Source: Malus domestica
Lineage: Eukaryota > Streptophyta > Magnoliopsida > Rosales > Rosaceae
Assembly: GCF_042453785.1 (NCBI RefSeq)
Contig: NC_091665.1
Location: 24,147,501 to 24,211,500 of the forward strand
Length of the DNA stretch: 64,000 nt
Direction: 5' to 3'
Shown: positions 11,716 to 63,341 of the stretch, piece by piece
Numbering within the stretch: the first letter of the stretch is position 1
Layout of the letters: each line of letters opens with the position of its first letter
Program-made: the position numbers and the translations under genes
The notes under the pieces: generated by a model
What the model was told of the DNA's origin: nothing
Database searches by the model: none
Seen by the model: the letters and a program-made list of their open reading frames with translations, nothing else

Positions 11716-12230
11716 TGTTTGTACCATACTTGACCAATCCCGAAACTACTGAGCACCGGTCAACGTTATACCGTCAAGGACCCAGAAGAGTTTCCCTACA
11801 ACCAGGAGGCCAATCACAGCGCGACACGTGTAGACATCAGAAGCCAATCATAGCGCGACACGTGTCAACATCAGAAGCCAATCACAACACGATACGTGTC
11901 AATGTCAGAATGAAACTAGAAACTCTTTTCTATAAATAGAGATCAATCTCTCACTATATTTCCTAATGTCATTTGTACTAAATCATTCACTAGTACTCAC
12001 TAAAGGAGAGCTTGAACATATGTACTTGTGTAAACCCTTCACAATTAATAAGAACTCATCTACTCCGTGGACGTAGCCAATCTGGGTGAACCATGTACAT
12101 TTTGTGTTTGCTTCCCTGTCTCTATCCATTTACATACTTATCCACACTAGTGACCGGAGCAATCTAGCGAAGGTCACAAACTTAACACTTTCTGTTGTAC
12201 CAAAGTCCCTACTGATTTTGTGCATCAACA
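11716..12230 (+). repeat. Element A 5' LTR
   Basis: 515 bp, from TGTTTGTACC to GTGCATCAACA. It contains three CCAAT plus ACGTG repeats (11809-11909), a TATA box TATAAATA at 11931-11938 and the downstream R/U5 part. It is homologous to the element B LTR over its full length. Confidence 0.92.
11809..11909 (+). promoter_or_regulatory. Three 34-bp U3 repeats with CCAAT box and G-box
   Basis: Three direct repeats of about 34 bp each pair a CCAAT motif with an ACGTG core: CACGTG at 11825-11830, CACGTG at 11859-11864 and TACGTG at 11893-11898. They sit 20-120 bp upstream of the TATA box. ACGTG cores (G-box/ABRE) bind bZIP and bHLH factors and CCAAT binds NF-Y, so light, stress or ABA input is plausible but inferred. 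Confidence 0.65.
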
Positions 12231-12250
12231 TTTGGCACCATCTGTGGGAA
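12231..12250 (+). other. Element A primer-binding region
   Basis: TTTGGCACCATCTGTGGGAA follows the LTR directly, where minus-strand priming occurs in LTR elements. Element B has the same site with GCGCCG in place of GCACCA. I did not assign the priming tRNA. Confidence 0.6.
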
Positions 12251-12336
12251 CGACACTTATTCCCACTCTCTTCAGCTTTTTCAAGCTGGTTTCCACAAAT
12301 TGTACACTCTCTTTTGACTAGGCATCCCTTTCCAAC

Positions 12337-16612: not shown

Positions 16613-17127
16613 TGTTTGTACCATACTTGACCAATCCCGAAACTACTAAGCACTGGTCAACGTTATACCGTCAAGGACCCAGAAGAGTTTCCCTACAACC
16701 AGGAGGCCAATCACAGCGCGACACGTGTTGACATCAGAAGCCAATCTTAGCGCGACACGTGTTAACATCAGAAGCCAATCACAACACGACACATGTCAAT
16801 GTCAGAATGAAACAAGAAACTCTCTTCTATAAATCGAGATCATTCTCTCACAATATTTCCTAATATCATTTGTACTAAACCATTCACTAGTACTCACTAA
16901 AGGAGAGCTTGAACCTATGTACTTGTGTAAACCCTTCACAATTAATAAGAACTCCTTTACTCCGTGGACGTAGCCAATCTGGGTGAACCACGTACATTTT
17001 GTGTTTGCTTCCCTGTCCCTATCCATTTACATACTTATCCACACTAGTGACCGGAGCAATCTAGAGAGTGTCACAAACTTAACACTTTATGTTGTACCAA
17101 AGTTCTCACTGATTTTGTGCATCAACA
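16613..17127 (+). repeat. Element A 3' LTR
   Basis: 515 bp, the same length as the left LTR, preceded by a purine-rich tract and followed by TAATA. It carries the same three CCAAT/ACGTG repeats with point changes. Confidence 0.92.
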
Positions 17128-17563
17128 TAATATATATTTATTATACTTCTATATGCCCCTATTTCTACTGTTTTTAGTGTGCAATTTAAAATACTTGAAT
17201 GGTCGATTCCAACCCAATACATTTCATGACTAAAATGTGATAAATTAACCATAAGGCAGCAAAGACCAATGCACCAATTGTAGTATAATAGAGTTGTAAT
17301 TCACTAGTTATTTAACTCGATGAATTTAGTAGATCTTTTTAGGAGGCCCAAATGACTATAGATAGAACCTATCCAATTTTTACAGTGCGATGGTTAGGTG
17401 TTCACAGACTAGATGTACCTACCGTTTCCTTTTTAAGGTCAATATCAGCAATGGGGGCGAGACATGACCGCAACTTAAGATTCAAGTACCATTGAAAGGA
17501 CTATAGGAACAGGAGAGTTTACAATCTATCACAAACAAAATGTGTTAAGTTATGCTACCCATA

Positions 17564-28235: not shown

Positions 28236-28401
28236 AACGGGAATCAAGAACCTCAAATTTTCATCGGGGTTTCTCTGATTTCAGTCTGTTAAGAGTATCG
28301 CGCTCGAAATTTGGTCTGGGTCGAGGCCAAGTTTTGAAATTTTGGTGCTTCTTCACTCGATTGGAGCTTATTCCTCTTTGGTCTTCGCGTTATTCACCCT
28401 A

Positions 28402-29175
28402 ATGGACGACCAGGAGGTGTTTCCGGGTGCAAACATGGGCGGTGAACTTGCGAGTAGTTGCTCAATGGACAGCTTCTTCGATGACCTGCTTAAGGACACT
28501 CATGCTTGCACTCACGCCCACACTTGCAACCCACCCGGCCCTGATTACTCCCACACACACACTTGCTTTCATGTGCACACTAAAATTCTGTCTTCAGCGA
28601 GTGAAGACAAGGCCGGAACTGATGATACTGCTGAGTCTGGGGAAAAGAAATCAAAGAAGCAGCCTTTGGGTAATAAGGTAGCAGTTCGTAAGTACCGCGA
28701 GAAGGAGAAGGCGCGGGTTAAGTTGTTGGAGGATGAAGTTGTGAATTTGAGAGCTGAAAATCGGCGGTTGGTGATGAGGTTGCAGGGTCAGCCTGCATTG
28801 GAGGCTGAGATTGCTAGGCTCAAGTGTTTGCTTGTTGACATTCGAGGAAGGATTGAAGGAGAAATTGGATCTTTTCCATATCAGAAATCAGTGAATCCGA
28901 TCCTGCCCAACCCAAATATGCCCGGTGCCATTTTTATGAATCCGTGTAATGTCCAATGTGATGATCAGCTTTACTGCCTTCGTCCAGGGATGGATGGGAA
29001 ATGTGGAGATGGTGCAGTGATGAATGGGCAGGATTTTAACGGCTGTGGTTTTGAGAGTCTTCAGTGTTTTGCTAATCAGGATGGAGGAGCCAAGGAGCTT
29101 CCTGATTGTGGACTTGGAAATGGGGTGTCGAATGTCAATTCTTCCGGCACAAGTAAGAGGAAAAGTAAGACATAA
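28402..29175 (+). CDS. Group F bZIP zinc-deficiency regulator (bZIP19/23-like)
   Basis: Transcription factor of 257 residues in one coding exon. Group F bZIPs bind zinc-deficiency response elements and switch on ZIP transporters. They sense zinc directly through a Cys/His-rich motif, seen here at residues 34-59 (HACTHAHTC, then HTHTCFHVHTK). It is preceded by the conserved CSMDSFFDDLL and followed by the DDTAESG block. The basic region is at about 91-107 (NKVAVRKYREKEKARVK, with the Asn-x7-Arg spacing), then a leucine zipper to about 145 and the conserved GEIGSFPYQK and NPCNVQCDD blocks. The protein ends in a basic tail. ATG 28402 is used because the frame upstream has no ATG. All zinc-sensing Cys and His positions I recall for AtbZIP19/23 appear present. 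Compared with those proteins the basic region has KEKARVK in place of KKKAKA-type residues. Confidence 0.93.
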   Translation: MDDQEVFPGANMGGELASSCSMDSFFDDLLKDTHACTHAHTCNPPGPDYSHTHTCFHVHTKILSSASEDKAGTDDTAESGEKKSKKQPLGNKVAVRKYREKEKARVKLLEDEVVNLRAENRRLVMRLQGQPALEAEIARLKCLLVDIRGRIEGEIGSFPYQKSVNPILPNPNMPGAIFMNPCNVQCDDQLYCLRPGMDGKCGDGAVMNGQDFNGCGFESLQCFANQDGGAKELPDCGLGNGVSNVNSSGTSKRKSKT

Positions 29176-35934: not shown

Positions 35935-36838
35935 TCACATGATAACGCACGCATCGGGGTTTTCATCGCTGAACGCCGTGGTGTAACGCACTTCCGTGGA
36001 GCTCGCACGTGCGAGGTTCCTCATCTGCGGGTCCTGCGAGTTCCGCACGTACCCGGACGGCGCCTTCTTGTCGTACACTCCCGCGGCGTAAGGGTGCGCC
36101 ACGACGTCGTATGGGACGTATGGCCAGAGCTCCACCTTCTTCCCCGTCCGATGCGCGACGCGCGCCAGCACCTTCCCCGGATCCACGTAGCCGACGACCG
36201 TCAGCTTGTGGGCCTTGCGCTCCACGTCCACCTGCGTTACGCCCTTCATTCCTTCCACCGATCTCTTCACCTTCCGCTCGCATCCTTCGCAGTCCATCTT
36301 CACCTTGATCTCCACCGTCTGATCAGACACAAAACAATTCCATGTATAAGTAAACTACATACGTGACATTGTACACGTGGCGATTGGGGAATGGATTTTT
36401 CTGGGTACTGTTCTTGGAGAAACAGAGACAGTAGGATGGAGCTCTAAAGAGTAAACGAAATGGATTTTATCCAACAAAAAAGTTATGAATCTAGAAAAAG
36501 AAAATGTTCGAGCTATTATGAACTAGAAAAGCAAAAAGCAGAAAAGGCTACAAAAGATAAATACTTATTTTCAGCTCCAATAAAAAAAAAGCCAAAAATA
36601 CTTGTTAGATCTCAAAACCCACAAACATTATAAGTGGCAGATTAGCATTTTTTTACAAGATATACCGAGATTTAGTCCTGCGTCGCCTCGATTCGTGTTT
36701 TCAGCCAAAAAAAAACTCAGAAATAGATAAAGGTTGAGAAGGAAAATATAGAATTACCTGGAATTGCCTGCGTTTCTTGAAGCTGGAACTCCCACCTGAG
36801 CAATCAAATAGATCAGAAAAATGATCCAAAACACCCAT
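35935..36838 (-). CDS. HIPP26/27-like heavy-metal-associated isoprenylated protein
   Basis: Two exons on the minus strand, 36838-36758 (27 codons) and 36318-35935, give 154 residues, close to HIPP26. HIPPs are plant metallochaperones that bind soft metals and are anchored by prenylation. HIPP26 acts in stress responses and interacts with the transcription factor ATHB29 in the nucleus. Visible features are the N-terminus MGVLDHFSDLFDC, an HMA domain with CxxC at 37-40 (MDCEGCERKV), then VVGYVDPGKV, ELWPYVPYDVVAHPYAAG, SSTEVRYTTAFSDENP and the CaaX box CVIM (151-154). CVIM predicts farnesylation. Exon 2 is much more GC-rich than its surroundings, which creates long spurious frames on other strands. 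The start is set by exon 1, which carries the family N-terminus. Confidence 0.94.
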
Positions 36839-42321: not shown

Positions 42322-42326
42322 GTTTC

Positions 42327-42839
42327 TGTTGATGCACAAAATCAGCGAAGACTTTGGTACAACAGAAAGTGTTAGGTTTTATGACCTTCGCTTGGTTGCT
42401 TCGGTCACTAGTGAGGATAAGTACGTAAATGAATAGAGACAGAGAAGCAAACACAGGATGTACGTGGTTCACCCAGATTGGCTACGTCCACGGAGTAGAG
42501 GAGTTCTTATTAGTAGTGAAGGGCTTACACAAGTACAAAGGATCAAGCTCTCAATTTAGTGAGTTCTTGTGAATGATTTAACACAAAATGGCATTAGGCA
42601 ATATTGTGGGGGAATGACCCCTATTTATAGAAAAACTTGTAGCTTTGTCACATTGACATGTGTCATGTTATGATTGGTTCTTGATGTTGACACGTGCTGC
42701 GCTCTGATTGGCTTCTAATCTTGACACGTGTCGAGTAGTGATTGGCCTCCTGGTCGGAGGGGAACTCTTCTGGGTCCTTGACAGTATAGCGTTGGCCGGT
42801 GCTCGGTAGTTTCGGGATTGGTCAAGTATGGTACAAACA
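42327..42839 (-). repeat. Element B 3' LTR
   Basis: 513 bp, TG..CA ends in element direction, identical by eye to 54678-55190. It is followed internally by the purine-rich tract (complement of GTGCTCCCCTAAG from 42840). Confidence 0.95.
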
Positions 42840-43140
42840 GTGCTCCCCTAAGTTCCCGAGTGAGGGAAACTCCTCGGTTGGGGACTTGCAAGATCCAATC
42901 CCTTGAGTAATCACGAAACTTCTAAGTACCGAAGTGTGGTCTGATCTTCATCTGCCCTTCTCTGGAAGTACCTTTCCTCCATCCGGGAATGGTGTACTTA
43001 GCTGATGTTGACGCACAAGGTAATGTATCAATTTCACTTGAAGCTTAGTTGTAGTTTCGGGCTTAGTCAAGTGTGATACAAACCCTATAGTAGGAGTCCC
43101 CCAAGTCGCCGAGCTAGGAGATCTGCCGAAAGAGGTGACA
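42840..43140 (-). repeat. PPT-proximal segment, duplicated at 45890-46060
   Basis: Contains CCCGAGTGAGGGAAACTCC followed by text on AATCACGAA and GTAGGAGTCCCCCAAGTC. The same order of motifs (CCCGAGTGAGGAAAACTTC, AGTCACGAAC, GTGGGAGTCCCCCAAGTC) recurs at about 45890-46060. The two copies bracket the antisense ORF and its upstream repeats. Confidence 0.65.
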
Positions 43141-44730
43141 GACAAGGTAAGCAGTCAAACTTCCAAGTAAGCAACCCAGGATCAGAGGTTTGACGTCGGC
43201 TTCCGGTTGATTGTTCTCATTCTCCTTGTCTCTCATTCAACTGCCAGGATAAGGAGAAGCAAATGGATAAGAGATGATATGAGATACTTTTGCTTTTGAA
43301 GAAGTAACTTTCCACAGGCTTATTCTTGAACTGTGCTGGAGGGTTTTCTGGTGCCCTTCAGAGTATAAGGCCGACTCAAAAATTTGAGGGTCAAAACAAG
43401 TCCATCAAATCTAGAGTACGTTCGACCTTGATGATATGAGATACTTTTGCTGTTGACGGAATAATAAATGTGGTATGGAAAGGTGTCGTGCTGTAGTGAT
43501 CTGTTTCAGCTCACCGTTGAACCTTCTGCTTCAATCTTTTGCATGGCAGAAGTGGTGTGCAACCTTTGCATTTAAATGGTCCTTCAGAACATTCCTTCAT
43601 AGTGACTCATCCACGCTTGGCAGCTTCAGTGTAAAGAGCCAATATCTGATCAACTGTCATGAGGTATTTGCCGGTGGAATTCGTGACCTTGACAGCAGTT
43701 GAGGATGAGTACTCGAGAGCAATGCTAAGTAAGCAACCAGGCAAAGGCTCCAGGCAGTCAGTTCCAAATTGGAGGTTTGATTTCAGGTTCCGACTGACTG
43801 CTCTCTTTCTCCTTGTCCTGCAGGTGTGGACAAGGACAAAGACAAAGACAGGGAGAAAGCATGATATGGGATACTCTTGCTTTCGACCCTGATGATATGA
43901 GAAACTCTTGTTCTTGGTGTGGCTTATTTGCTGAGGTATTATCGGGGGGAAATAAAGCTGAGTATTTCGAGAGGTTATGTTGAGGGTGCCTTTTCGAATG
44001 CGAGAAAGGGTTGAGCATTTTTGCAGGTTTGCCTGTCCGTTGAGGAGGGAGGTCAATGTATATAGGGATTTCCCAATAACAAGTAGTAATGCTATTCCTT
44101 TACCCTTCTTGGTCACAGCAATGTAGTGGGAGCTGCCAGCTTCACGTGTTTTAATTTTGTCAGAGCACTTTGAAAAAAGTGGTATGTGGTATCTGGAAAG
44201 CTGATATTACGTGTGGAGATTACAGACAAGCTTTATCTAAGGAAATCTGGCTCTCGAAGTTCTGAGAGTTGTGCCTCTTCGGTTTTCGAACAAGCAATCC
44301 CGTCGAGGATCTGACTCTCGAGATTTGGAAAGCGGTGCTACTCCGGTTTTTGAGAAAGTAATTATGTTGGGAGTCTTTTCTCGAATGTGAGTAAAGGTTG
44401 GTCGTTCTTGCCAACCTGTCTTGCCACAAAACACGGAGGTCGACACACATAGGGACTTTCCAGTTGTCAAGCAGTGGTGCTGTTCCTTTACCCTTATGGG
44501 TAATAGTAGGGTAGCTGGCACTTCGAAATTCTCGTGCCTAAACTTTGTCAGAGATCTTTGACAAAGTTATATGTGGTACCCGAGGAGTTGATGGTGCATA
44601 TGGAGAGCGGTGATTGATCAGTAAGATTCACGTGCTTTCTACTTCACCAGAAATCTTCGACAGATTGCCCGTAATTTCCGCAAAGCTGATTGTGCATGTG
44701 ACAGGTGCTGACGAGGCTGCAAAAGCAGGT
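43141..44730 (-). other. Distal 3' internal region of element B
   Basis: Non-coding sequence homologous to 14300-16550 of element A in the opposite orientation. It carries fewer copies of the ~64-bp unit (near 44255-44400) than element A. Frames on both strands are short and repeat-derived. Confidence 0.6.
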
Positions 44731-44880
44731 GCTTCTTCGATTTCTGAGATCGGCCCTCGTGGTCTCTGAGCAGCCCAGCTTTTGAGAAAGCATTCGCCTC
44801 TTCGATTTCTGAGATCGGCCCTCGTGGTCTCTGAGCAGCCCAGCTTTTGAGAAAGCAAACGCCTCTTCGATTTCTGAAGC
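44731..44880 (+). repeat. 65-bp repeat upstream of the antisense ORF, 2.3 copies
   Basis: Units start at 44731, 44796 and 44861 (GCYTCTTCGATTTCTGA). The first two are nearly identical over 65 bp and the third is cut short. They end about 135 bp before the antisense ORF start, where promoter elements would be expected. A TATA-like TTTTTATAGA lies at about 44896-44905. Confidence 0.7.
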
Positions 44881-45016
44881 TCCGTCGAGTGCAGATTTTT
44901 ATAGAGGCTGGCATTAAGTTCCACAGCACACTTGAATCTCTACCAGTAGAAGCTCATTTCTTGCACTTCTAAGATCTTGATTTGCCTGACCTCTTCCTTC
45001 TTCAACACATTTGAAA

Positions 45017-45691
45017 ATGTCTGGACCCTCCGACCGTCGTTTTGACTTGAACCTTGGAGAAGAGACATCCACGCCTTCTCCAGACAACATATGGCGCCCA
45101 TCCTTCATATCCCCTACTGGTCCTCTTACCGTTGGGGATTCTGTGATGAAGAATGATATGACCGCTGCAGTGGTGGCCAGGAACCTTATCACTCCCAAAG
45201 ATAACAGACTACTTTCCAAACGGTCTGATGAGTTGGCTGTTAAGGACTCTCTGGCTCTTAGTGTTCAGTGTGCAGGTTCTGTGTCTAATATGGCCCAACG
45301 CCTATTTGCTAGAACCCGCCAAGTTGAATCATTGGCTGCTGAAGTGATGAGTCTCAAACAGGAGATTAGAGGGCTCAAGCATGAGAATAAGCAGTTGCAC
45401 CGGCTCGCCCATGACTATGCTACAAACATGAAGAGGAAGCTTGACCAGATGAAGGAATCTGATGGTAAGGTTTTACTTGATCATCAGCGGTTTGTGGGTT
45501 TGTTCCAAAGGCATTTATTGCCTTCGTCCTCTGGGGCTGTACCTGGTAATGAAGCTTCAAATGATGAACCTCCAATGCCTCCTCCTTCTGGGGTTTTGTC
45601 AAGTACTGAGGCTCCGGATAACCACCCTCCGGTGCTTTCTCTTTCTGGGGCTCTACCGACTGCTGAGACTTCCCCTAAGCAACCTTTGTGA
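45017..45691 (+). CDS. Antisense accessory ORF of element B, coiled-coil protein
   Basis: An ATG at 45017 opens 224 codons on the strand opposite to gag-pol, inside the 3' internal region. The N-terminus has an EAR-like FDLNL (residues 9-13). The middle (about 95-145) is a heptad-rich coiled coil (VESLAAEVMSLKQEIRGL, then HENKQLHRLAHDY). The C-terminal third is Pro/Ser-rich with three imperfect ~21-residue repeats (SGAVPGNEA, SGVLSSTEA, SGALPTAET). The frame is open 6 bp further up only at a TTG. TATA-like TTTTTATAGA lies ~110 bp upstream and AATAAA lies at 45759-45764, 70 bp after the stop, so it looks like a self-contained gene. Antisense accessory ORFs are known in Tat elements (Grande gene 23, a nuclear protein). 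Function here is unknown; a nuclear or regulatory role is inference. Confidence 0.75.
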   Translation: MSGPSDRRFDLNLGEETSTPSPDNIWRPSFISPTGPLTVGDSVMKNDMTAAVVARNLITPKDNRLLSKRSDELAVKDSLALSVQCAGSVSNMAQRLFARTRQVESLAAEVMSLKQEIRGLKHENKQLHRLAHDYATNMKRKLDQMKESDGKVLLDHQRFVGLFQRHLLPSSSGAVPGNEASNDEPPMPPPSGVLSSTEAPDNHPPVLSLSGALPTAETSPKQPL

Positions 45692-45758
45692 AGGCTCCCT
45701 TTTGTTTGTTTATTTTGACTCATGTATATGTACATATTTGTGGCTTATCGAAAATATT

Positions 45759-45764
45759 AATAAA
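45759..45764 (+). terminator. Polyadenylation signal of the antisense ORF
   Basis: AATAAA on the plus strand, 68 bp after the TGA stop, in a T/A-rich context. It supports a separate transcript running against the retroelement mRNA. Confidence 0.5.
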
Positions 45765-46195
45765 TAAGCTTTGCTTCATTTCAACATATTGTGTTAAATA
45801 CACCAAAGCCTTCTTCATAAAGTTCTTTGAATTTTTGCTTTTGTTGAAACCTGTATTGTTGAAGCTTTGTGAGTGAAGCATGTAGTTTGAGGTAGTGTTC
45901 CCTTAATTTCCCGAGTGAGGAAAACTTCTCGGTTGGAGACTTGAAAAATCCAAGTCACTGAGTAGTCACGAACTTTTGAGTACCAAGGCGTAGTAGCATA
46001 TGGTGGGAGTCCCCCAAGTCTCTAGTCGAGGGAGTTGACGAATGAGGTGTCTTGCTAATAGTCCATGTCGTAAGTACCAAAACTTCATTCTTTTGTTTTC
46101 TAAGTGGTAGCCCCGGACTTTTTCTTCATAGATTTTGTTTATGAAGGTTGCTAGGCCCGAATAAGTGGAATTGCAGAAGGTGTAACCGTTGGTGC

Positions 46196-46290
46196 ATTAA
46201 CATCATAATGGAAGCATCACAATGATGGAAGCATCACAATGATGAAAGCATCATAATGATGAAAACACCATAATGATGAAACATCATAAT
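46196..46290. repeat. ~19-bp minisatellite (CATCAYAATGATG)
   Basis: Five to six units of about 18-20 bp with the core AAGCATCAYAATGATG. It is the shortest of the arrays in the 3' region of element B. Confidence 0.7.
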
Positions 46291-46378
46291 GATGTTTCTT
46301 TGGTGGAATTGTTTTTCATTTCCCCTAACAACCGGAATTGTTTTTCAACATAACACCATCATCTGTAGGTCGAATCAC

Positions 46379-47300
46379 AAAGTTGTCTTCATGAAAGTTG
46401 TTCGTTAATTCCTTAACTACAACATATCCAAATTGGAGAGCCATCGGAGCAGTACAACTCCAGAAATCCAGGTATGATGAGTGACTGTTTATCATTTGTC
46501 TGTCAACCCGTCAGATTTGTTGTGAGCTTTGAAACTCTATTTTCTCTTGCTCAGATCAGCATGCTTTCTTCATTGAAGTTGTTCCTCAGCTTGTGAACTA
46601 CAACATATCCAAATTTGAGATCCCTCGGAGCTGTATAACTCAAGAAACTCAGGTATGATGAATGACTGGTTATTATTTTTCTGTCAACCCGTCAGATTTG
46701 TTGTGAGCTTCGAAACTCCATTTTCTCTTGTTCAGATCGGTATGCTTTCTTCATTGAAGTTGTTCCTCAGCTTGTGAACTACAACATATCCAAATTTGAG
46801 ATCCCTCGGAGCTGTATAACTCAAGAAACTCAGGTATGATGAATGACTGGTTATTATTTTTCTGTCAACCCGTCAGATTTGTTGTGAGCTTCGAAACTCC
46901 ATTTTCTCTTGTTCAGATCGGTATGCTTTCTTCATTGAAGTTGTTCCTCAGCTTGTGAACTACAACATATCCAAATTTGAGATCCCTCGGAGCTGTATAA
47001 CTCAAGAAATTCAGGTATGATGAATGACTGGTTATTATTTGTCTGTCAACCCGTCAGATTTGTTGTGAGCTTCGAAACTCCATTTTCTCTTGTTCAGATC
47101 GGTATGCTTTCTTCATTGAAGTTGTTCCTCAGCTTGTGAACTACAACATATCCAAATTTGAGATCCCTCGGAGCTGTGTAACTCAAGAAATTCAGGTATG
47201 ATGAATGACTGGTTATTATTTGTCTGTCAACCCGTCAGATTTGTTGTGAGCTTCGAAACTCCATTTTCTCTTGTTCAGATCGGTATGCTTTCTTCATTGA
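46379..47300. repeat. 181-bp tandem satellite array
   Basis: The landmark TATGCTTTCTTCATTGAAG recurs at 46741, 46922, 47103 and 47284, with a CATGC variant at 46560 and a more diverged unit from 46379, so the period is exactly 181 bp over five units. The inner units are nearly identical and the outer ones diverged, as expected for unequal exchange. Diverged sequence continues to about 47530. No ORF spans the units. Confidence 0.85.
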
Positions 47301-47880
47301 AGTTGTTCCTCATCGACTCTTTCATAACATATCAAAAATTCAGGATGAACTAACGGTTAAATATTTCCAGATCTTCGAAACATCACAACAGCTTCGAAAT
47401 CTGCAAGAAGCCGACTATCATGTTTGGAGCTTCAACACTTTAATTTCCGTCGCTCAAACAGAAATGGTTCCTTCTTGAAAGTTGTTCATATGCTCAAGAA
47501 CTATAGGGTGTCCAAAATTCAGCTCCATTGGAGAAGAGCAGAGGTTGCAGAAATTTGATAGATGAAAGGAGGCGGAAGAGGGAGAGAGAGAAAAAGTCTC
47601 TTGGGTTGGATTTCTATTTTGGGGCAGATTCCAATTTTTGTAGCACCTTCATTATTGATGAATTGCTTGTACTTTTGTCCATTATGAAATTTGGGACTTT
47701 GGCTTGTTGTTGGATCTATTATAATATGTTTGGGAACATATATAAGTGAATAAATAAGAAGGAAAATTTTGGGCCCTTGTGGGTGTAAAACAAAAAATGT
47801 TTATGTTTACCCAAGTGTTTTTGTACAAGTTCAAGGGCATCTTGGGTTTTGTGAACAAAATTTGTTTATTTGGAGCAAGG

Positions 47881-48315
47881 TTTTGTGTTGAAGCTTTGTA
47901 GGTGAAGCTTTGGTGTTGAAGCTTTGTGGGTGAAGCTTTGGAGGTGAAGCTTTTCGGGTGAAGCTTGTTGGGTGAAGCTTTTTAGGTGAAGCTTTGTGGG
48001 TGAAGCTTTTTAGGTGAAGCTTTTCGGGTGAAGCTTTTTGGGTGAAGCTTTTTAGGTGAAGCTTTTCGGGTGAAGCTTTTTGGGTGAAGCTTTTTAGGTG
48101 AAGCTTTGATGGTGAAGCTTTTTGGGTGAAGCTTTTTAGGTGAAGCTTTTTGGGTGAAGCTTTTTAGGTGAAGCTTTGATGGTGAAGCTTTTTGGGTGAA
48201 GCTTTTTAGGTGAAGCTTTGATGGTGAAGCTTTTTGGGTGAAGCTTTTTAGGTGAAGCTTTGTGGGTGAAGCTTTGGAGGTGAAGCTTTTCGGGTGAAGC
48301 TTTTTGGATGAAGCT

Positions 48316-48316
<1 letters not shown>
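47881..48316. repeat. ~14-bp minisatellite (GGTGAAGCTTTTT), about 31 copies
   Basis: GAAGC recurs about 31 times in 435 bp with units of 13-16 bp and variants TTTTTGGG, TTTTTAGG, TTTGATGG, TTTTCGGG and TTTGTGGG. Higher-order pairs and triplets alternate regularly. Similar sequence (TTGAAGCTTTGTGAGTGAAGC) occurs once at about 45857-45877 and may be the seed. Confidence 0.85.

Positions 48317-48349
<33 letters not shown>
48317..48349 (-). repeat. A33 homopolymer tract in element sense
   Basis: Thirty-three consecutive T on the plus strand, A33 in element direction, about 210 nt after the polyprotein stop and directly before the minisatellite. The length may be unreliable if sequencing or assembly struggled here. 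Confidence 0.75.
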
Positions 48350-48350
<1 letters not shown>

Positions 48351-48561
48351 GCGCTTGACACGGTCTTCATTTGCTTGTTTTGTAGTGACTGTGGAAGACA
48401 GATTGCTTTCTGATTGAGAAGGGTTCCGGCATCGCTTGCTATGAATGTAAAAGAGTGAGGGCTGAGTTGGCTAAATTACCTCTTTATTGAATTCATTGCC
48501 AAATGGCCTTCATTACATAGGATGCCGAACGGCTATAGCTCAACACTTGTACATCGTGAGT

Positions 48562-50283
48562 CTATTTGTAGTAGTACTTCAAGTGATCAGCGTTCCATGG
48601 ATGGCCAAGGGTCTTGCCATCGGAGCTTCTAAGTGTGTAAGAGCCAGGGCGACTGATGCCAATGACTTCATACGGTCCATCCCAGTTTGGACTAAGTGTG
48701 CCTTCACTCGGGACTCTGTCGCAGAGTAATCTTTTCTTTAAGACCCAGTCTCCTATTTTGAAAGAACGAGGCTTGACCCTAGAGTCATAATAGTTGGAGA
48801 TGCGCTGCTTGTAGGCGACATTCCTCAAGTGAGCTTGGTTTCTGTGTTCCTCGACTAAATCCAAGTTGAGGGTGAGTTGTTTGTCATTTTCACTTTGAAT
48901 GTAGTTCTGGACTCGGAATGTTGCTTGCTCGAGCTCAACAGGGACAACCGCCTCTGTGCCAAAGGCAAGTGAGAATGGAGTTTCTCCTGTTGAAGTCCGA
49001 TATGAAGTGCGATATGACCAAAGAACTTGGGGTACAAATTCTGGCCAACAGCCTTTAGCTTTGTCCAAGCTGGTTTTCAAAGTGCGCTTGATTATTTTGT
49101 TGATGGCCTCAACTTGTCCATTAGACTGGGGATGAGCTGGAGAGGCAAAGCATAAGTTGATGTTGAACTTAGAGCAGAACAACCTGAACTTGTTGTTGTC
49201 AAACTGTCGCCCATTGTCAGTGACTATCGCATTGGGAATGCCGAATCTACAAAGGATGTTCTTCCACACGAAGTCTTCTATCTTTGCCTCAGTAATGGTT
49301 GCCAAGGGTTCTACTTCGGCCCACTTTGTGAAGTAGTCCACTGCAACGACTGCGTAACAGACTTTGCCCTTCCCTGCCGGCATTGGGCCGATCAAATCAA
49401 GTCCCCACTGGGCGAAGGGCCAAGGGCTGATCATAGGAGTAAGAGGCTCTGGAGGGGAATGAGGAATAGCCGCATATCGTTGACATTTGTCACATGAGCG
49501 GGATACTTTGATGGCATCCTGGTGGAGTGTTGGCCAGTAATATCCTTGGCGAAAAGTCTTGTGTGCTAGGGACCGAGATCCAGCATGATCTCCACAGACT
49601 CCCTCATGTATTTCCCGAAGGACGATTTCCGCCTCGGCAGGCGTAAGACACCTTAAGTATGGCAGGCTAAAACCTCGCTTATAGAGTTGATCATTGATGA
49701 TCAGGTAGCGGGTAGACTTGTATCGAATTTGCTTAGCCTGGACTTTATCATTTGGGAGGGTGCCATGAGCAAGGAAATTATAGATCGGGGTGATCCAACT
49801 ATCCCCCTGTTGTAAGTTGCATACTTCTGCGGCCATGGTGCTTGGTGTTGCCAACAGTTCGACATGAATTTTTCTTCCAATCTTGTCTTCCACAGCTGAG
49901 GCGAGGCGAGCCAGGGCGTCTGCATGACTGTTTGCCGCTCGAGGAACTTGGGTGATCTGGTAGTGGAAGTGCTTGAGCAAAAGTTGTGTTTGCGCAAGAT
50001 ATGCTGCCATGGAGCTGTCCTTAGCATCAAAGTTGTTGGTAACCTGGTTGACCACTAATTGGGAGTCACTGAAAATATCAATTTGTTTAACCCCGAGGTG
50101 TTTGGCCAAACGTAATCCTGCTAGAAGGGCTTCATACTCGGCCTCATTGTTTGATGCCTTGAATTTGAAACGAAGAGCATACTCCATTGCTACTTTGTCG
50201 GGCGTAGTCAAGACTAGTCCCGCTCCACAGCCCTGTTGGTTGGATGAGCCATCAACATACAGACTCCATGCTGAGGTCGTTGA
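48562..50283 (-). CDS. Element B second RNase H and integrase
   Basis: This is the continuation, in the same frame, of the gag-pol reading frame after two stops (TAG 50293-50295, TAA 50284-50286). The first domain is the additional RNase H of Tat elements: LYVDGSSN near 50243-50263, NNEAEYEALLAGL, IFSDSQLVVNQV and HADALARLAS. The integrase follows, with an HHCC zinc-binding region (HEGVCGDHAG, then CDKCQRYA; about 49600-49470) and the DDE core in GLDLIGPMP, TDNGRQFDN and SNGQVEAIN (about 49400-49095). A C-terminal GPYEVI-type domain ends it. All catalytic residues are present. The first ATG of the open part (50211) lies after the VDGSS aspartate, so translation from it would give an incomplete RNase H. 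Confidence 0.88.
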   Translation of the reverse strand, partial: STTSAWSLYVDGSSNQQGCGAGLVLTTPDKVAMEYALRFKFKASNNEAEYEALLAGLRLAKHLGVKQIDIFSDSQLVVNQVTNNFDAKDSSMAAYLAQTQLLLKHFHYQITQVPRAANSHADALARLASAVEDKIGRKIHVELLATPSTMAAEVCNLQQGDSWITPIYNFLAHGTLPNDKVQAKQIRYKSTRYLIINDQLYKRGFSLPYLRCLTPAEAEIVLREIHEGVCGDHAGSRSLAHKTFRQGYYWPTLHQDAIKVSRSCDKCQRYAAIPHSPPEPLTPMISPWPFAQWGLDLIGPMPAGKGKVCYAVVAVDYFTKWAEVEPLATITEAKIEDFVWKNILCRFGIPNAIVTDNGRQFDNNKFRLFCSKFNINLCFASPAHPQSNGQVEAINKIIKRTLKTSLDKAKGCWPEFVPQVLWSYRTSYRTSTGETPFSLAFGTEAVVPVELEQATFRVQNYIQSENDKQLTLNLDLVEEHRNQAHLRNVAYKQRISNYYDSRVKPRSFKIGDWVLKKRLLCDRVPSEGTLSPNWDGPYEVIGISRPGSYTLRSSDGKTLGHPWNADHLKYYYK

Positions 50284-50295
50284 TTATACTTTCTA
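50284..50295 (-). other. Two in-frame stops inside the element B polyprotein
   Basis: On the minus strand the frame reads TAG AAA GTA TAA. Both sides are open for more than 540 codons in the same frame and the domains continue across it. The site falls in the linker between the two RNase H domains. Confidence 0.9.
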
Positions 50296-53200
50296 AGCTT
50301 CCGATGGTAATGAAGCTACTGCTTCAGGTGTTGAAGCAATGTCAACAGGATATGTGAAGTCGGCGATGAAATCTGCTACTGCTTGGCCCTTCTCAGCTGG
50401 CTTTGGTTGGTAGGAGATGTCAAACTCACCCAACGCTATTGCCCATTTGATCATTCGCCCTGAAGTGTCAGGACTTTGGAGTATCTGTCGAAGAGGATAA
50501 TTGGTAAGCACGATGATGGAGTGCGCTTGGAAGTAAGGGCGGAGTTTTCGAGCAGACATGACCAATGCCAGAGCCAATTTCTCAATGTTAGAGTACCGTG
50601 TCTCCGCATCTTGTAAGGCTTTGCTAGCGTAGTAGACAGGTCGCTCAATATTCCCATCCTTTCGAATGAGAACGGAACTTACGGCTGAAGCTGATACCGA
50701 TAGGTAGATAATGAGAATGTCTCCTACCTCGGGCTTGGAGAGTAGAGGGGCTTTACTCATGTACTCCTTGAGGTTTTTGAATGCCTCGGCACATTCATCA
50801 GTCCATGTAATGTACTTCCTACTTCCCTTAAGTGCTTTAAAAAAGGGAGCACATTTGTCTGTGGCCTTAGAAATGAACCTGGTTAAGGCTGCCACCTTGC
50901 CAGTAAGGCTCTGGATGTCCTTTGAAGTTACCGGTTCCTTCATGTCGAGGATTGCTTTGATCTTCTCGGGATTAGCTTCAATGCCTCGTTGGCTAATCAT
51001 GAAACCTAAGAATTTGCCAGAGCCTACGCCGAAGGCACATTTGTTGGGGTTTAACCTCATTTGATACCTCTTCAAAATAGTGAAAGTTTCATATAGGTTG
51101 GTGATGTGTTGGTCAGCATGTTTGCTCTTGACTAACATATCATCAACGTAAACTTCCATGCTCTTCCCAATCTGCTCGGCGAACATTGAGTTGACTAGTC
51201 TCTGATAAGTCGCTCCTGCATTCTTTAGGCCGAAAGGCATGACTTTGTAGCAATATAGTCCTCTGTCGGTAGTGAAGGCTGTGTGTTCTTGATCCGAAGG
51301 GTTCATGAGGATTTGGTTGTATCCTGAGTAAGCATCCATGAAGCTCAGGAGTTCACACCCGGCCGTAGAGTCTATAAGTCTGTCAATAAGAGGAAGAGGG
51401 AAGCTATCTTTCGGACACCCTTTGTTTAGGTCGGTGTAGTCAACACACATTCTCCACAAGACCTTTTGAAGCAAAAGACTTTCTTTGGTCGGATTTTTCT
51501 TAACAAGGACCACATTTGCTACCCATGTCGGGTAATTGACTTCGCGGACAAAGCTTATGCCTTTGAGTTTTTCAACTTCTGTTTTCATTGCCTCGTATCG
51601 TTCAGCGTCATAAGATCTTCGCTTCTGTCTCACCGGCTTGATCTTGGGGTCAATACTCAAACGATGACAGATGACATCGGGAGAGATGCCTGGCATGTCC
51701 TCGTATGACCAGGCGAAGACTTCAGTGTTCTCTTTCAAAAAAGATATCAATGCTAACCGAAGGGGTGGTGACAATGTGGTGCCAATCTTCACCATGCGAT
51801 CTGGATAATCTCTTGAGATAGGTACCTTCTCCAACTCTTCAGCAGGTTGGGCTTGCTGGGTGAAAGAGTCATCTCGAGGATCATCGGGTTGATTGTTGCT
51901 ATCAGGAAGATCCAAGTTCGCTTCATCTAGGCTGGTCTTTGTGACTTGGTCATGTACAGACAGGGTTTCCTTAGGTCCGGGCAAGTGTTGTTGCTTAACT
52001 GAAGTGTTGTAACATGATCGTGCACTAAGCTGATCTCCTCTGATGTAGTCGTTGCCATGGGGGGTTGGAAATTTCATCAACAGCATATGCGTGGATACCA
52101 TAGCCTTGAGATCATTGATGCCTGTGCGCCCAAAGATGACATTGTATGCCGTTGGGCAGTCAACCACTAGGAAGTTAGTGGTAATGGTAGCCGTGTAAGG
52201 GCCTGTACCAATAGTAAAGGGTAAATGTATGCTCCCTAAAGGTTGCACGATATCACCGGAGAAGCTTATCAGAGGAGAAATCGAGCGATCGAGCAAGTGT
52301 TCAACTACACTGAGTGCCCTGAAAGCTTCGGCAAACATGATATTGACCGAAGCCCCTGTGTCTACGAGGATTCGTCTAACATCAAAGTTGGCTATGTGAG
52401 CCTCCACGATCAATGGGTCGTTATGAGGGTAGATGATGCCTCTTTCTTCCTCAGGGTAGAAACATATCGGATCCCAGTTAGGCTTTTGATACTTCCCTCC
52501 CCTAATGTCTTCCACGTGAAACACTTGGTGACCAGGCCTCAGAATTCGTTCACTGTTTTTCATGGCCCTATTGGAAGATTCAGATATGGGTGTGCCGCCG
52601 CTTATGGAATATATGACATTCACCTGGCGTTGGTTACGGTTATCCCTTTGAGGGTGAAGGAGGAATTGATCAATTTTTCCTTCTCGTGCCAAAGCTTCAA
52701 TACGATCACGGAGGATGATACATTTCTCGCTATCATGGCCGTTATGCTCATGGTAGCAACAAAACATGCCCGCGTTATTCGGGGGCGTGTAATCTGGGTG
52801 CCTCGGCTTTGGCTTTGGTATCAGGTGAGCTATGCTGGGGTAAATGGCCGCGCATGTGGCATTCAAGGGCGTGTATGTCTCATACCTTGGGGTAGGGGGT
52901 ATCTTGACGCGGGTTTGACCCACTGCATTGACTGCCTGGGGGCGAGCGTTATTGTGGCGATACCCTTGGTTATCGGGATAGTGTCCCTTACTCTTTTTAC
53001 TGAAATGAGAGTGGTGAGGATGGAAATCCTTCCTCTTGCCTTGAAATTGATATGTCTGTTGATTCGGCGAAGCATTATGCAAGGCATGGGGAGGTGCCAC
53101 TGCTGTTTGGAAAGTCGAGGTCTTCTCATTTAGGTGAGTCTGGCTTCCACCTCCCACTTGTTGATAAAGGATGGTTGTAGGGGGTTTCTCCTGATATGTC

Positions 53201-54570
53201 TTTGCCTCGGCGGAGGCATGGTTATAAGCCTGCGCCATCACCTCAGAGTAAGTCTTCCAAGTATTGGCATTGATCATGTATTTAAAGAAACAATCACGTA
53301 GGCCTGCCGTGAAGGCTTTGAGGGCAGTCTTGTCGTCTGCCTCGGCACACCGGGAGTATTCATGGCTGAAGCGGCCAGCATACATACGTAATGACTCGTC
53401 TGGCTTCTGGCGGATAGTGTACAGGTCATCTGCAGAGTGCAAGCGATCGGTTTGGAAAATGTGTTGGGAAACAAATAGTTTCCTCAATTCCTCAAATGAG
53501 TCTACCGTCTCAGGTGTAAGACGACAATACCAATTTAGAGCTCCGCCAGAGAGGGTGGAGGGGAAGAGAAGACATCGCTCTTCGTCGGTGTGCATCCGGT
53601 ATGCCATGGTGGACTCAAAGAGGTTAAGGTGCTCAATCGGGTCCTCTTTCCCAGTATAAAGTTGCAAGCCAAGCTTCTGCTTTGTCTTTGCTTGAAGGGG
53701 GGTGTTGAGGATCCTCCTTGTAAGAGGGCCAGGCCTGGGTTGGTTCCAGTCAGGTATTTCAGCCTGACGTTCAGCCTTCAACTTGTTTACTTCCTCAAGA
53801 AGTTGTAGGACAAGGGGGTCCTGAGCGGAGTTATGTGCCACTGGAGCTTTCTTTCGTAAATCTCCATCTCCTCTTGGAATTAGGAAGGTTTGATCAAGGG
53901 CATGTGATTTTTCCCTGGACTCGCTGTACTGGCTTCCAGGGTATGTCTGTCGGAACACCTCTGAGTCCCCTGTACCCTCATGTCTCTCTAGGACTTGTTG
54001 CCCATTCCCCAAGTTGGTGGCCGGCTCGGGCCGTGGCAGGGGACCGAGTCTCTCAGAAATCCTTGGGTCATTGATCTTTGAGCTTATATGGATGGAATTC
54101 TCTCGACGTTGCTTCAGGAAATCCCGACAATCGCGAAAGACGGCTTTCGATCCTTCTGCCCCTTCAGCAAAGAGGTGTCTCCCTCCGCTTCTCATGGTTC
54201 GGGTCGAAGCAACTGGGTTAAGAGAAGCCTCATGTTGATTATCAAATCGAGGGGTAATTTGTTCCCTATCAGGGATATCTATGTCGAATGCATGTGACCC
54301 TCCATGTTGGAGGGCACCCAGTTGATGGTTGACTTCCACGGGGGCAACAAGCTCGCGTGTCTGAGCTTGCCTAGCTTCGTGAAGTGTCTCGAAGAGCTTC
54401 TCATATTGCTCCTGGAGGACCTCATTCCTCATTGCTATCTTGTTGTTCTGAGCTTCCAACTCATCGACTTTAGCTTGAAGAAGAACTCGTTTTCCTTCCT
54501 TCTTTCGTTGTTTCGCACTATGTGCAAGGGGGGTGTCATTCTGTGTGCTGTGGCTTCCTTCGCTTCCCAT
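50293..54570 (-). CDS. Element B gag-protease-RT-RNase H polyprotein
   Basis: The frame is open upstream into the LTR, but the biological start is ATG 54570 (MGSEGSH), shared with element A, giving about 1425 codons to the TAG. Domains in order: an N-terminal coiled-coil stretch; the gag core near 53606-53200 (ERCLLFPSTLSGGALNWYC); a CCYHEHNGHDSEKC zinc-binding motif near 52750; aspartic protease with VDTGAS (DTGA codons 52351-52362); reverse transcriptase with FMDAYSGYNQI, MPFGLKNAGATYQR and YVDD (codons 51139-51150); and a Ty3-type RNase H (YYASKALQDAETRYSNIEKL). All key residues are intact and no frameshift was seen. Its role is particle formation and cDNA synthesis. Pol continues after the stops, so a full polyprotein needs readthrough or help from another copy. 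Confidence 0.93.
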   Translation of the reverse strand: MGSEGSHSTQNDTPLAHSAKQRKKEGKRVLLQAKVDELEAQNNKIAMRNEVLQEQYEKLFETLHEARQAQTRELVAPVEVNHQLGALQHGGSHAFDIDIPDREQITPRFDNQHEASLNPVASTRTMRSGGRHLFAEGAEGSKAVFRDCRDFLKQRRENSIHISSKINDPRISERLGPLPRPEPATNLGNGQQVLERHEGTGDSEVFRQTYPGSQYSESREKSHALDQTFLIPRGDGDLRKKAPVAHNSAQDPLVLQLLEEVNKLKAERQAEIPDWNQPRPGPLTRRILNTPLQAKTKQKLGLQLYTGKEDPIEHLNLFESTMAYRMHTDEERCLLFPSTLSGGALNWYCRLTPETVDSFEELRKLFVSQHIFQTDRLHSADDLYTIRQKPDESLRMYAGRFSHEYSRCAEADDKTALKAFTAGLRDCFFKYMINANTWKTYSEVMAQAYNHASAEAKTYQEKPPTTILYQQVGGGSQTHLNEKTSTFQTAVAPPHALHNASPNQQTYQFQGKRKDFHPHHSHFSKKSKGHYPDNQGYRHNNARPQAVNAVGQTRVKIPPTPRYETYTPLNATCAAIYPSIAHLIPKPKPRHPDYTPPNNAGMFCCYHEHNGHDSEKCIILRDRIEALAREGKIDQFLLHPQRDNRNQRQVNVIYSISGGTPISESSNRAMKNSERILRPGHQVFHVEDIRGGKYQKPNWDPICFYPEEERGIIYPHNDPLIVEAHIANFDVRRILVDTGASVNIMFAEAFRALSVVEHLLDRSISPLISFSGDIVQPLGSIHLPFTIGTGPYTATITTNFLVVDCPTAYNVIFGRTGINDLKAMVSTHMLLMKFPTPHGNDYIRGDQLSARSCYNTSVKQQHLPGPKETLSVHDQVTKTSLDEANLDLPDSNNQPDDPRDDSFTQQAQPAEELEKVPISRDYPDRMVKIGTTLSPPLRLALISFLKENTEVFAWSYEDMPGISPDVICHRLSIDPKIKPVRQKRRSYDAERYEAMKTEVEKLKGISFVREVNYPTWVANVVLVKKNPTKESLLLQKVLWRMCVDYTDLNKGCPKDSFPLPLIDRLIDSTAGCELLSFMDAYSGYNQILMNPSDQEHTAFTTDRGLYCYKVMPFGLKNAGATYQRLVNSMFAEQIGKSMEVYVDDMLVKSKHADQHITNLYETFTILKRYQMRLNPNKCAFGVGSGKFLGFMISQRGIEANPEKIKAILDMKEPVTSKDIQSLTGKVAALTRFISKATDKCAPFFKALKGSRKYITWTDECAEAFKNLKEYMSKAPLLSKPEVGDILIIYLSVSASAVSSVLIRKDGNIERPVYYASKALQDAETRYSNIEKLALALVMSARKLRPYFQAHSIIVLTNYPLRQILQSPDTSGRMIKWAIALGEFDISYQPKPAEKGQAVADFIADFTYPVDIASTPEAVASLPSEA

Positions 54571-54657
54571 GCTGGAGAGGGATGCCTGATCAAAAGAAAG
54601 TGTACGAATGATAGAAACCAGCTTGACACAGCTGAAGAGAGTAGGAATAAGTGTCGT

Positions 54658-54677
54658 TTCCCACAGACGGCGCCAAA
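54658..54677 (-). other. Element B primer-binding region
   Basis: In element direction TTTGGCGCCGTCTGTGGGAA lies directly after the 5' LTR. It corresponds to the element A site at 12231-12250. The tRNA is not assigned. Confidence 0.6.
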
Positions 54678-55190
54678 TGTTGATGCACAAAATCAGCGAA
54701 GACTTTGGTACAACAGAAAGTGTTAGGTTTTATGACCTTCGCTTGGTTGCTTCGGTCACTAGTGAGGATAAGTACGTAAATGAATAGAGACAGAGAAGCA
54801 AACACAGGATGTACGTGGTTCACCCAGATTGGCTACGTCCACGGAGTAGAGGAGTTCTTATTAGTAGTGAAGGGCTTACACAAGTACAAAGGATCAAGCT
54901 CTCAATTTAGTGAGTTCTTGTGAATGATTTAACACAAAATGGCATTAGGCAATATTGTGGGGGAATGACCCCTATTTATAGAAAAACTTGTAGCTTTGTC
55001 ACATTGACATGTGTCATGTTATGATTGGTTCTTGATGTTGACACGTGCTGCGCTCTGATTGGCTTCTAATCTTGACACGTGTCGAGTAGTGATTGGCCTC
55101 CTGGTCGGAGGGGAACTCTTCTGGGTCCTTGACAGTATAGCGTTGGCCGGTGCTCGGTAGTTTCGGGATTGGTCAAGTATGGTACAAACA
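54678..55190 (-). repeat. Element B 5' LTR with U3 G-box repeats
   Basis: 513 bp. Element-sense TATA box TATAAATA at 54973-54980. Three direct repeats of 34 bp with CCAAT and an ACGTG-like core: CACGTG at 55076-55081 and 55042-55047, CATGTG at 55008-55013. The spacing is the same as in element A. Confidence 0.95.
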
Positions 55191-55195
55191 GTTTC

Positions 55196-57107: not shown

Positions 57108-57356
57108 TGTTGTGACATATGTTCTTATCAATATGTGATTGTGTAAATCCTAAGTAGAGATAAAATAGGAATCCTTTAGGATCTAGAAGATCTTTCCTAA
57201 TATACTTTGTATTACTTGGAGAGCAAGTTTCTCTCCTCCTAATTACTATAAATAAAGGCACAAGGACTGGGGAATTAACAAACAATTCCTCAAGTCTATT
57301 CTCCAATCTCTCTTCTTCTCTTTGCTGCACATCTCTGTAAAATATAGGCCACAACA
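57108..57356 (+). repeat. Element C 5' LTR
   Basis: 249 bp with TATA box TATAAATA at 57247-57254. It differs from the 3' LTR at three positions (G/A, A/G and C/A). Confidence 0.92.
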
Positions 57357-57399: not shown

Positions 57400-58822
57400 G
57401 AGAATTTATTCGTCTACAATCAGGGGAGTATTACGTTTCAATTATTTTTAATTGATTAAATCTTGATTTTATTGCATTCATATATTGTTATTGATTCAAT
57501 TTATTTTTCTTCTTATGTTGAACGTGATACAAGCTTGAAGATGAAAGCCGAAATTGAAGAAATAATTTTTCTGCATCAAACCAGTTCATTCATATCATCA
57601 CGCAATCAGGTTCTTCCAAAACAACGGTTTTTAACTCGATATTTTTGAAGCCCTGATTGCATGAACATTCACCATGATGCATGACCCAACTTTACGTTTA
57701 ACGTATTTTAGATTCTACATAAATTGTGTATGCCTCATAACCAAAATTGCTACAATTATGTGAATTTGATATTTTTCATGAATTGAATCTTACATATGTA
57801 CATGCATTGAAACTATTATTTGCATATGCATCAAAGTAAATACGTGATTCATTGAAATATATATACAATTGAATTATTTATGAATATAATTGAATTGAAA
57901 AAAAAAAATTTGGAAACGGGAAAATTAGGGTTCTTCGAACCCATGCCTTTGCATTATGCAAAAGCCGCAAGAACCCTAGGGTTCCCTCCCCGTGACCCCA
58001 ACAATACTGGGCTCACACGAGCCCACTATAGATTGCAAAGCACTGGAGCAAAACCCTTGCTCCATCTGAAAAACGCCTTCGGCATCAAACCCTAACACAA
58101 GGTGCCGCTCGAAGTCGGCCACGGCTTCAACGCCGTTATTGCTGGGCAATCACACCTGCAGTTGTGATTGGGACCTCGCCATTGTCGAAGACGATGGGTT
58201 TTTTTTTTCTTCAGAAACCCGATGAACATCGACGGGTTCTTTGAACCCCAATCGTTCTCAGACCTCTGACGTTGAAACCAAAGTTTCCGTCTACAACTCG
58301 GGTTCCCCAGTTGAACCCCCAAGCTTTGCATTGCCATAGACCCCGAGGACAGTCGCCAGAAGCGACACCGGCGTTCCCCCGGTTCGAATTTGACACCCAG
58401 CGACGCTGGGTTGTTTTGGTTTTCTTCAACCCGAGCCCTATTGGGCTCCAGTTCCTCGGCCCGTGTGAAAAGAAAAAAACATTTTTTTGGCCTGCCAGCA
58501 GCAGCCCAACCCATTCCCCGTGAGCCTGCAGCTCACCCGTGACCCCCCTTAGTTATTTCTCTCCTGCCCGTGGGCCTGCAGCCCCGCCAGAGACTAAACC
58601 TAGCCCAATTTTGGGCTTAGGTCACATGGCAAGATTTATATATAGCCACTCGAGGACTTATTTTGGGCCACAAATTTTATTTGCCTAATTATTTTAGGCC
58701 CAATGGGTTATATATTTTTTCACCCACATTTTAATTTGGCCCGAAGTCCAAATAAATTAATTCAATTATAATTATAAACCTGAAGTTATATCTTTGTATA
58801 TCCTTGTTGTATATTTGCTTGC

Positions 58823-63092: not shown

Positions 63093-63341
63093 TGTTGTGA
63101 CATATGTTCTTATCAATATGTGATTATGTAAATCCTAAGTAGAGATAAAATAGGAATCCTTTGGGATCTAGAAGATCTTTCCTAATATACTTTGTATTAC
63201 TTGGAGAGCAAGTTTCTCTCCTCCTAATTACTATAAATAAAGGCACAAGGACTGGGGAATTAACAAACAATTCCTCAAGTCTATTCTCCAATCTCTCTTA
63301 TTCTCTTTGCTGCACATCTCTGTAAAATATAGGCCACAACA
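63093..63341 (+). repeat. Element C 3' LTR
   Basis: 249 bp, preceded by the polypurine tract ending at 63092 and followed by TTAAC. Confidence 0.92.

Follow-up and report, generated by a model that had tools for sequence, protein, structure and literature searches.

Comparison of element copies in the apple genome shows that a 224-codon, ATG-initiated ORF lying opposite to gag-pol is, on sequence grounds, an antisense accessory gene that codes for a protein and belongs to a high-copy LTR retrotransposon of the Tat/Retand type. Purifying selection evidently acted on its core, codons 32-176, during the activity of the element families. The antisense gene seems to be a real and testable component of the element, not a chance reading frame, because it has been kept by selection, has promoter-like signals of its own, and is a relative of a known gene class. 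Taken as such a selected gene, its product is probably an oligomeric nuclear regulator of the element. The DNA analyzed, hereafter the window, is a stretch of 64,000 nucleotides of Malus domestica (NC_091665.1, 24,147,501-24,211,500, forward strand), and all positions given below are those of the window unless a locus is named.

The host element occupies 42.3-55.2 kb of the window and reads along the minus strand. Its 5′ LTR (54678-55190, minus strand) and 3′ LTR (42327-42839, minus strand, 513 bp) both have TG..CA ends and agree at all 515 aligned bases, and the element is flanked by a 5-bp target duplication, GTTTC, at 42322-42326 and 55191-55195 (LTR ends and duplication were read by eye). 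The first gag-pol ORF (50293-54690, minus strand) contains gag, RT, and RNase H (PF03732, PF00078, PF17919, and PF17917), and the second pol ORF (48562-50211, minus strand) contains an additional RNase H-like domain (aRH) followed by integrase (PF13456, PF17921, and PF00665). The coding region is broken into these two ORFs at 50211-50293, with RNase H on one side of the break and the additional RNase H on the other. In angiosperms, an additional RNase H between RH and INT marks the Tat elements Ogre and Retand (PMC6317226, in excerpt), and the same order is found here, with RT_RNaseH ending the first ORF and RVT_3, then integrase, in the second. The region between pol and the 3′ LTR (42840-48561) is 5.7 kb long and holds the antisense ORF along with two arrays, namely a tandem array at 46415-47312 and an array of about 31 copies of a 14-bp unit at 47889-48319, close to the end of pol; in Retand elements, this region measures approximately 2.9-6.6 kb, carries an antisense ORF, and includes tandem arrays in about half of the cases (PMC11963269). 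By these features, we classify the element as a Tat/Retand-type LTR retrotransposon of Ty3/gypsy. In a pairwise comparison, its RT shares 66% identity with the RT of a TRP28-bearing element from this genome. The TGTT/AACA elements of PMC5659011, which that source, in excerpt, presents as Copia or TRIM elements, were set aside as a comparison.

As the sequence-only reading had proposed, the 224-codon frame runs against gag-pol in an element with identical LTRs, at 45017-45691 on the plus strand. Its length is beyond what chance usually gives, being reached by one of 1000 Markov sequences of the region and by none of 3000 of the local stretch, which argues against the very improbable alternative that the ORF is accidental or hitch-hiking, so that antisense RNA alone, or nothing, matters. 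In favor of that alternative, convergent transcription could form double-stranded RNA, as discussed for the class (PMC7264820, in excerpt). The predicted protein consists of an FDLNL motif at residues 9-13, a homologous block at 26-89, a coiled coil at about 88-150, and a Pro/Ser tail at 166-224. The long coiled coil and the repeated tail, both anticipated from the sequence, were recovered: in a simple custom heptad scan, the best 28-mer (residues 101-128) scored above all 500 shuffles, and the tail is made up of three degenerate units of about 19 residues each. Values of dN and dS among the three tail repeats (0.40/0.93, 0.54/0.45, and 0.49/0.32) were inconsistent and were rejected as evidence. 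Searches against Pfam, NCBIfam, and PDB returned weak matches alone, mostly to the coiled coil and under curated cut-offs, and no DNA-binding domain was recognized with Pfam and NCBIfam. Codon usage, compared with that of gag-pol and host ORFs, did not distinguish the antisense frame from the other frames, and a short-peptide scan of viral contigs turned up nothing related to either the ORF or the RT. Among the top literature matches, from which subscription papers were mostly outside scope, there was no paper on this ORF or on any EAR-like antisense ORF.

Kinship was found with the antisense genes of TRP28-bearing Retand elements. A search of the genome with PF04195 gave 24 matches among the best 150 scored of 420 candidates, none of those 150 matching inside the window. 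At one of the matching loci (L078), TRP28 scores 27.2 bits against a cut-off of 26.2, and the strand opposite to it encodes the gag, RT, RH, aRH, and INT of an element whose 515-bp LTRs are 96% identical. Approximately 850 bp past this TRP28, on the same strand, a frame reading WRPEF...VTLGD...AVARGL..PSD matches residues 26-89 of the ORF (E 3e-4 with 20 TRP28 loci as the database; none of 150 shuffles attained the best score), and the comparison of residues 24-90 with this sister WRPxF frame scored 75, the maximum in 1000 shuffles being 45. Three relatives of this locus (L068, L070, and L077) align in the same register with E values of 0.036, 0.28, and 0.64, each non-significant alone, so that significant homology is limited to L078, one of the 20 TRP28 loci. 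The WRPxF...AVAR...PxD block, which is our own unpublished criterion for kinship outside TRP28, is thus present in the antisense ORF. The sister WRPxF frame reaches a candidate AG|GTATG splice boundary and then a coiled-coil-like frame, and no intron was seen in the antisense ORF at the corresponding place. Homology between that coiled-coil-like frame and the coiled coil of the ORF was rejected, as 718 of 1000 shuffles scored as high. TRP28 itself was not found: PF04195 was not among the 14 families matched at E up to 1 in the profile search, and 11 TRP28 stretches searched against the 3′ internal region and 30 loci of the related subfamily B (about 3 kb each) gave a best E of 0.63, with a positive control of L078 against ten other TRP28 loci yielding E values of 9e-33 to 3e-4. 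In the TRP28-bearing sister element (L081:1874-2566, plus strand), a second antisense frame, free of stops over 231 codons, was observed, with a basic N-terminus and a coiled-coil-like end.

The shared block and the missing TRP28 point to the same gene class with the same order of parts, minus TRP28; the ORF is thus a variant of the antisense accessory gene known from Retand elements, shortened and apparently with a single exon. As regards the first reading, the product does have relatives, residues 26-89 being homologous to part of such a gene in a TRP28-bearing Retand-type element. Antisense ORFs were reported in all 63 Retand clusters of a large survey (Vicient 2025, PMC11963269), and the apple ORF resembles the TRP28 ORFs described there in being antisense, in lying between pol and the 3′ LTR, and in belonging to a long region with tandem arrays; it differs in that no TRP28 was found, no intron was seen, and the coiled coil is not recognizably homologous. 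The TRP28-less state is not unique to the apple element, because the antisense ORF clusters Helianthus annuus 4 and 5 of the same survey, likened here by description, have also kept the ORF and are without TRP28.

Copies of the element family were searched for in the window's own genome (651 Mb, 19 contigs). With the ORF as query, 3089 first-look candidates were obtained, and the best 40 of these were scored, all of them about 100% identical. These belong to subfamily A, in which 28 of 30 fetched loci share one ORF sequence, two bases off the window copy, with three haplotypes overall. The ORF is intact in all 30 fetched loci, a count that is biased because the loci are best hits; moreover, the mutual identity of the 28 would suit an accidental ORF as well, and open frames in fresh copies say little because the copies are nearly identical. 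A second, older, and internally deleted copy of the family, which represents subfamily B, lies at 11716-17128 (plus strand), with LTRs identical at 490 of 516 bases (95.0%). Of the antisense ORF, it retains codons 1-26 (14251-14174, minus strand); it also has fragments of gag and a long 64-bp array. When the start block of this older copy was used as query, there were 2807 candidates, of which the best 40 were scored, and 30 B loci were fetched, one of which (L031) is the older window copy itself and was excluded from the dN/dS counts. Among the 29 others (L032-L060), 26 align across the whole ORF, 18 are exactly 675 nt long, and 5 are intact, with 181-192 of 224 residues identical to A; the dN/dS counts thus omit the 3 of 29 loci without full-length alignment and the 8 of 26 whose length is other than 675 nt. 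That only 5 of the 26 full-length B copies are intact is again what an accidental ORF would lead one to expect. Across 17 B copies, the ORF and the next 300 nt are 90% identical to A. A and B each represent one lineage, so that the statistics below treat copies of shared descent, which are not independent.

Where at least 80% of the 18 B copies had a difference from A in common, it was taken to have arisen during lineage activity, and private changes were taken to be mostly post-insertion. The whole ORF shows 39 shared differences, 20 synonymous and 19 nonsynonymous (dN/dS 0.34, P 0.0008), falling on the three codon positions as 17/4/18, and the corresponding values for the other five frames were 0.60, 2.25, 0.75, 0.59, and 1.55, none of them significant (lowest P 0.08). 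Private mutations of the whole ORF comprise 63 synonymous and 140 nonsynonymous changes, a ratio of 0.80 (shared versus private, Fisher P 0.013). For the core (codons 32-176, covering most of the WRPxF block and the coiled coil, with a boundary picked after the positions of the changes were known), 13 synonymous and 4 nonsynonymous shared differences were counted, and the private ratio was 0.75 (Fisher P 0.0005). Neutral evolution of the frame across copies had been named by the sequence-only reading as an outcome that would speak against it, and the core is not neutral (dN/dS 0.11, P 2e-5). By region, dN/dS was 0.62 for codons 1-40, 0.12 for 41-165, 0.10 for 88-150, and 0.68 for 166-224, so that the N-terminus, including the neighborhood of FDLN, and the tail evolve in a near-neutral fashion. 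In the older window copy, the 26 remaining codons carry 10 differences, and their dN/dS was not used alone.

The choice of threshold affects the core and the whole ORF differently. At 60, 80, and 95%, the core gave dN/dS values of 0.13, 0.11, and 0.14 (P 2e-5, 2e-5, and 0.016), and the whole ORF gave 0.33, 0.34, and 0.52 (P 0.0002, 0.0008, and 0.10), significance at 95% surviving in the core only. The comparison of Ka/Ks across family members suggested earlier therefore has a divided outcome, with the core below neutral at every threshold and the whole ORF losing significance at the strictest, a value that agrees with an accidental ORF. That reading is nonetheless largely refuted by dN/dS, as the synonymous excess is significant in the antisense frame only, is concentrated in the core, and is missing from the private mutations. 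The selection results indicate that the frame encodes a selected protein, chiefly by virtue of its core.

A protein under such selection might serve the replication cycle instead of transcription, for example as a coiled-coil chaperone or as a nuclear-import adaptor for the particle or integration complex, an alternative that we consider possible but unlikely. Selection on the core is about as strong as on gag of the two window copies, which was used as a control (dN 0.078 and dS 0.569 over 220 codons), and stronger than on a 139-codon N-terminal gag segment of the same copies (dN 0.155, dS 0.386); the coiled coil is the best recognized feature of the protein, and a function in retrotransposition has been proposed for antisense ORFs (PMC7264820, in excerpt). 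However, no sequence feature indicating RNA or capsid binding was noted, and the separate antisense promoter with its repeat array, as described below, suggests expression uncoupled from gag-pol.

Comparison of the copies shows that the antisense ORF has promoter-like signals of its own, consisting of a 64/65-bp array and then a TATA approximately 115 nt before the ATG. In the window, the TATA of the proposed antisense promoter (TTTTTATAGAGG) lies at 44900-44903 (plus strand), 117 nt before the ATG, where a TATA-like motif had been noticed from the letters. TATA occurs in 19% of 100-bp windows of the region; it is located at -117 in all 30 A loci, which are near-identical copies, and at -112 to -122 in all 27 B loci counted, three others (L039, L048, and L051) being omitted from the promoter counts as loci in which the ATG block was not found. 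In random sequences of the window's B upstream composition, TATA fell within 5 nt of -117 in 30 of 2000. The sequence around it differs between the subfamilies, through either replacement or rapid divergence: from -110 to -1, A and 17 B copies have an identity of 0.47, compared with 0.445 after shuffling and 0.90 in the ORF, and are hence unalignable. In all six B loci compared, A/B homology breaks at -22 (-16 in L041) and restarts at -401 to -423 in A and -181 to -225 in B. Searched at E 0.001 against 52 other loci and the remaining window, the subfamily A promoter segment without an alignable B counterpart (44613-44993, plus strand) had no match. An ungapped A-A distance over 3675 nt was discarded, being distorted by array indels.

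The 65-bp tandem repeat itself (44731-44877, plus strand; 44734-44877 according to TRF) comprises 2.2 copies, with a 17-nt core occurring three times, at 44731, 44796, and 44861; it lies upstream as claimed, but 139 nt from the ATG and not immediately adjoining it. Degenerate units of the same 64-bp array are present at 44249-44400 (plus strand), with cores at 44249, 44273, and 44337 bearing 5, 3, and 5 mismatches. The core thus recurs every 64/65 bp upstream, in variable copy number and on the strand of the antisense ORF, and a scan of both window strands, allowing up to 3 mismatches, gave ten core matches, every one of them situated upstream of the antisense ORF in one or other of the two copies and sharing its strand. 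Downstream, a polyadenylation-signal-like AATAAA (45759-45764, plus strand) begins 68 nt past the last base of the stop codon, close to the 70 bp originally reported. This hexamer is found in 8% of 100-bp windows of the region and occurs within 85 nt past the stop in all 30 A loci and in 23 of the 27 B loci, in a stretch that is conserved anyway.

The FDLNL at residues 9-13 had been read as EAR-like. FDLN is invariant in 56 of 56 copies, and the fifth residue is L in the 30 A copies and F in the 26 B copies. In the ERF-type repressor motif L/FDLNL/F(x)P, both L and F are permitted at the fifth place (PMC6479872 and PMC4103849, in excerpt), so that the first five positions fit in both subfamilies (FDLNL and FDLNF), and the proline is absent; DLN motifs without a conserved proline have also been reported (PMC6479872, in excerpt). 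What stands of the EAR-like reading is therefore [L/F]DLN[L/F] near the N-terminus, with no proline and with neither the LxLxL nor the DLNxxP pattern anywhere in the ORF. Six sister TRP28 loci are readable at the loosely aligned place, five with SDSN and one with YDLN. An EAR function of the motif is only possible, because the proline is missing and the neighboring codons drift. It seems doubtful, and slightly less likely than a replication role, that the protein is an EAR-type repressor adaptor, with the element or host loci as the sites to which it would recruit TOPLESS-like corepressors: the invariance of FDLN and the tolerance of such motifs for either fifth residue and for a missing proline would fit, whereas the absence of LxLxL and DLNxxP, the almost free change of N-terminal codons (0.62), the different residues in the sister loci, and the lack of a recognized DNA-binding domain speak against it.

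A role as a nuclear oligomeric regulator of the element remains the likeliest that we infer, because the shared block and coiled coil are under selection, the gene has its own promoter-like region, and the Grande gene23 protein is reported to be nuclear. In the proposed mechanism, RNA polymerase II would start about 85 nt before the ATG, yielding a short unspliced mRNA that runs against the genomic RNA of the element; the protein would oligomerize via its coiled coil, enter the nucleus as the gene23 protein does, and control how the element is transcribed or silenced; host corepressors might make contact at the invariant FDLN close to the N-terminus. Maize Grande gene23 (Gomez-Orte 2013) encodes a nuclear protein and has its own promoter, according to PMC7264820 (in excerpt). 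The likeness, drawn by description, is that of an antisense accessory gene in the 3′ internal region with its own promoter there and promoter-like signals here; transcription and nuclear location are reported for gene23, whereas the apple gene is known from its sequence.

A more specific version of this role, which we think improbable, is that an oligomeric EAR-like coiled-coil protein targets the 17-nt cores that recur every 64/65 bp upstream of its own TATA, directly or via a host factor, and thereby sets the silencing state of the element sequence-specifically, in the manner of VANC but as a product of an LTR retrotransposon's antisense strand. VANDAL is a DNA transposon, unlike an LTR retrotransposon. 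The anti-silencing VANC proteins of VANDAL (PMC5735166, in excerpt) are comparable, again by description, as accessory proteins encoded by transposable elements with variable tandem repeats of a target motif; binding to the motif is reported for VANC, whereas motif targeting here is a proposal.

Elsewhere in the window, a pair of LTR-like 249-bp direct repeats (57108-57356 and 63093-63341) are 98.8% identical and 6 kb apart, with one ORF of at least 120 aa between them (58092-58514, minus strand). Additionally, two ORFs are presumably of host origin, one at 28342-29175 (plus strand) resembling a bZIP factor with a His/Cys-rich stretch and the other at 35935-36330 (minus strand) resembling a heavy-metal-associated (HIPP-like) protein.

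We know of no function for the antisense ORFs of Retand elements. Between the two apple subfamilies, the promoter segment has become unalignable, yet the position of the TATA and the repeat core have been kept; if the protein did target its own array, array expansion and promoter turnover between the subfamilies would then reflect an arms race against host silencing. The apple gene is a natural variant that lacks TRP28, the single domain commonly recognized in the class, but retains a selected core. This suggests that what Retand antisense genes do in common may depend on the WRPxF-plus-coiled-coil part. As a small, apparently single-exon gene, it makes the role of the Retand antisense genes directly testable.
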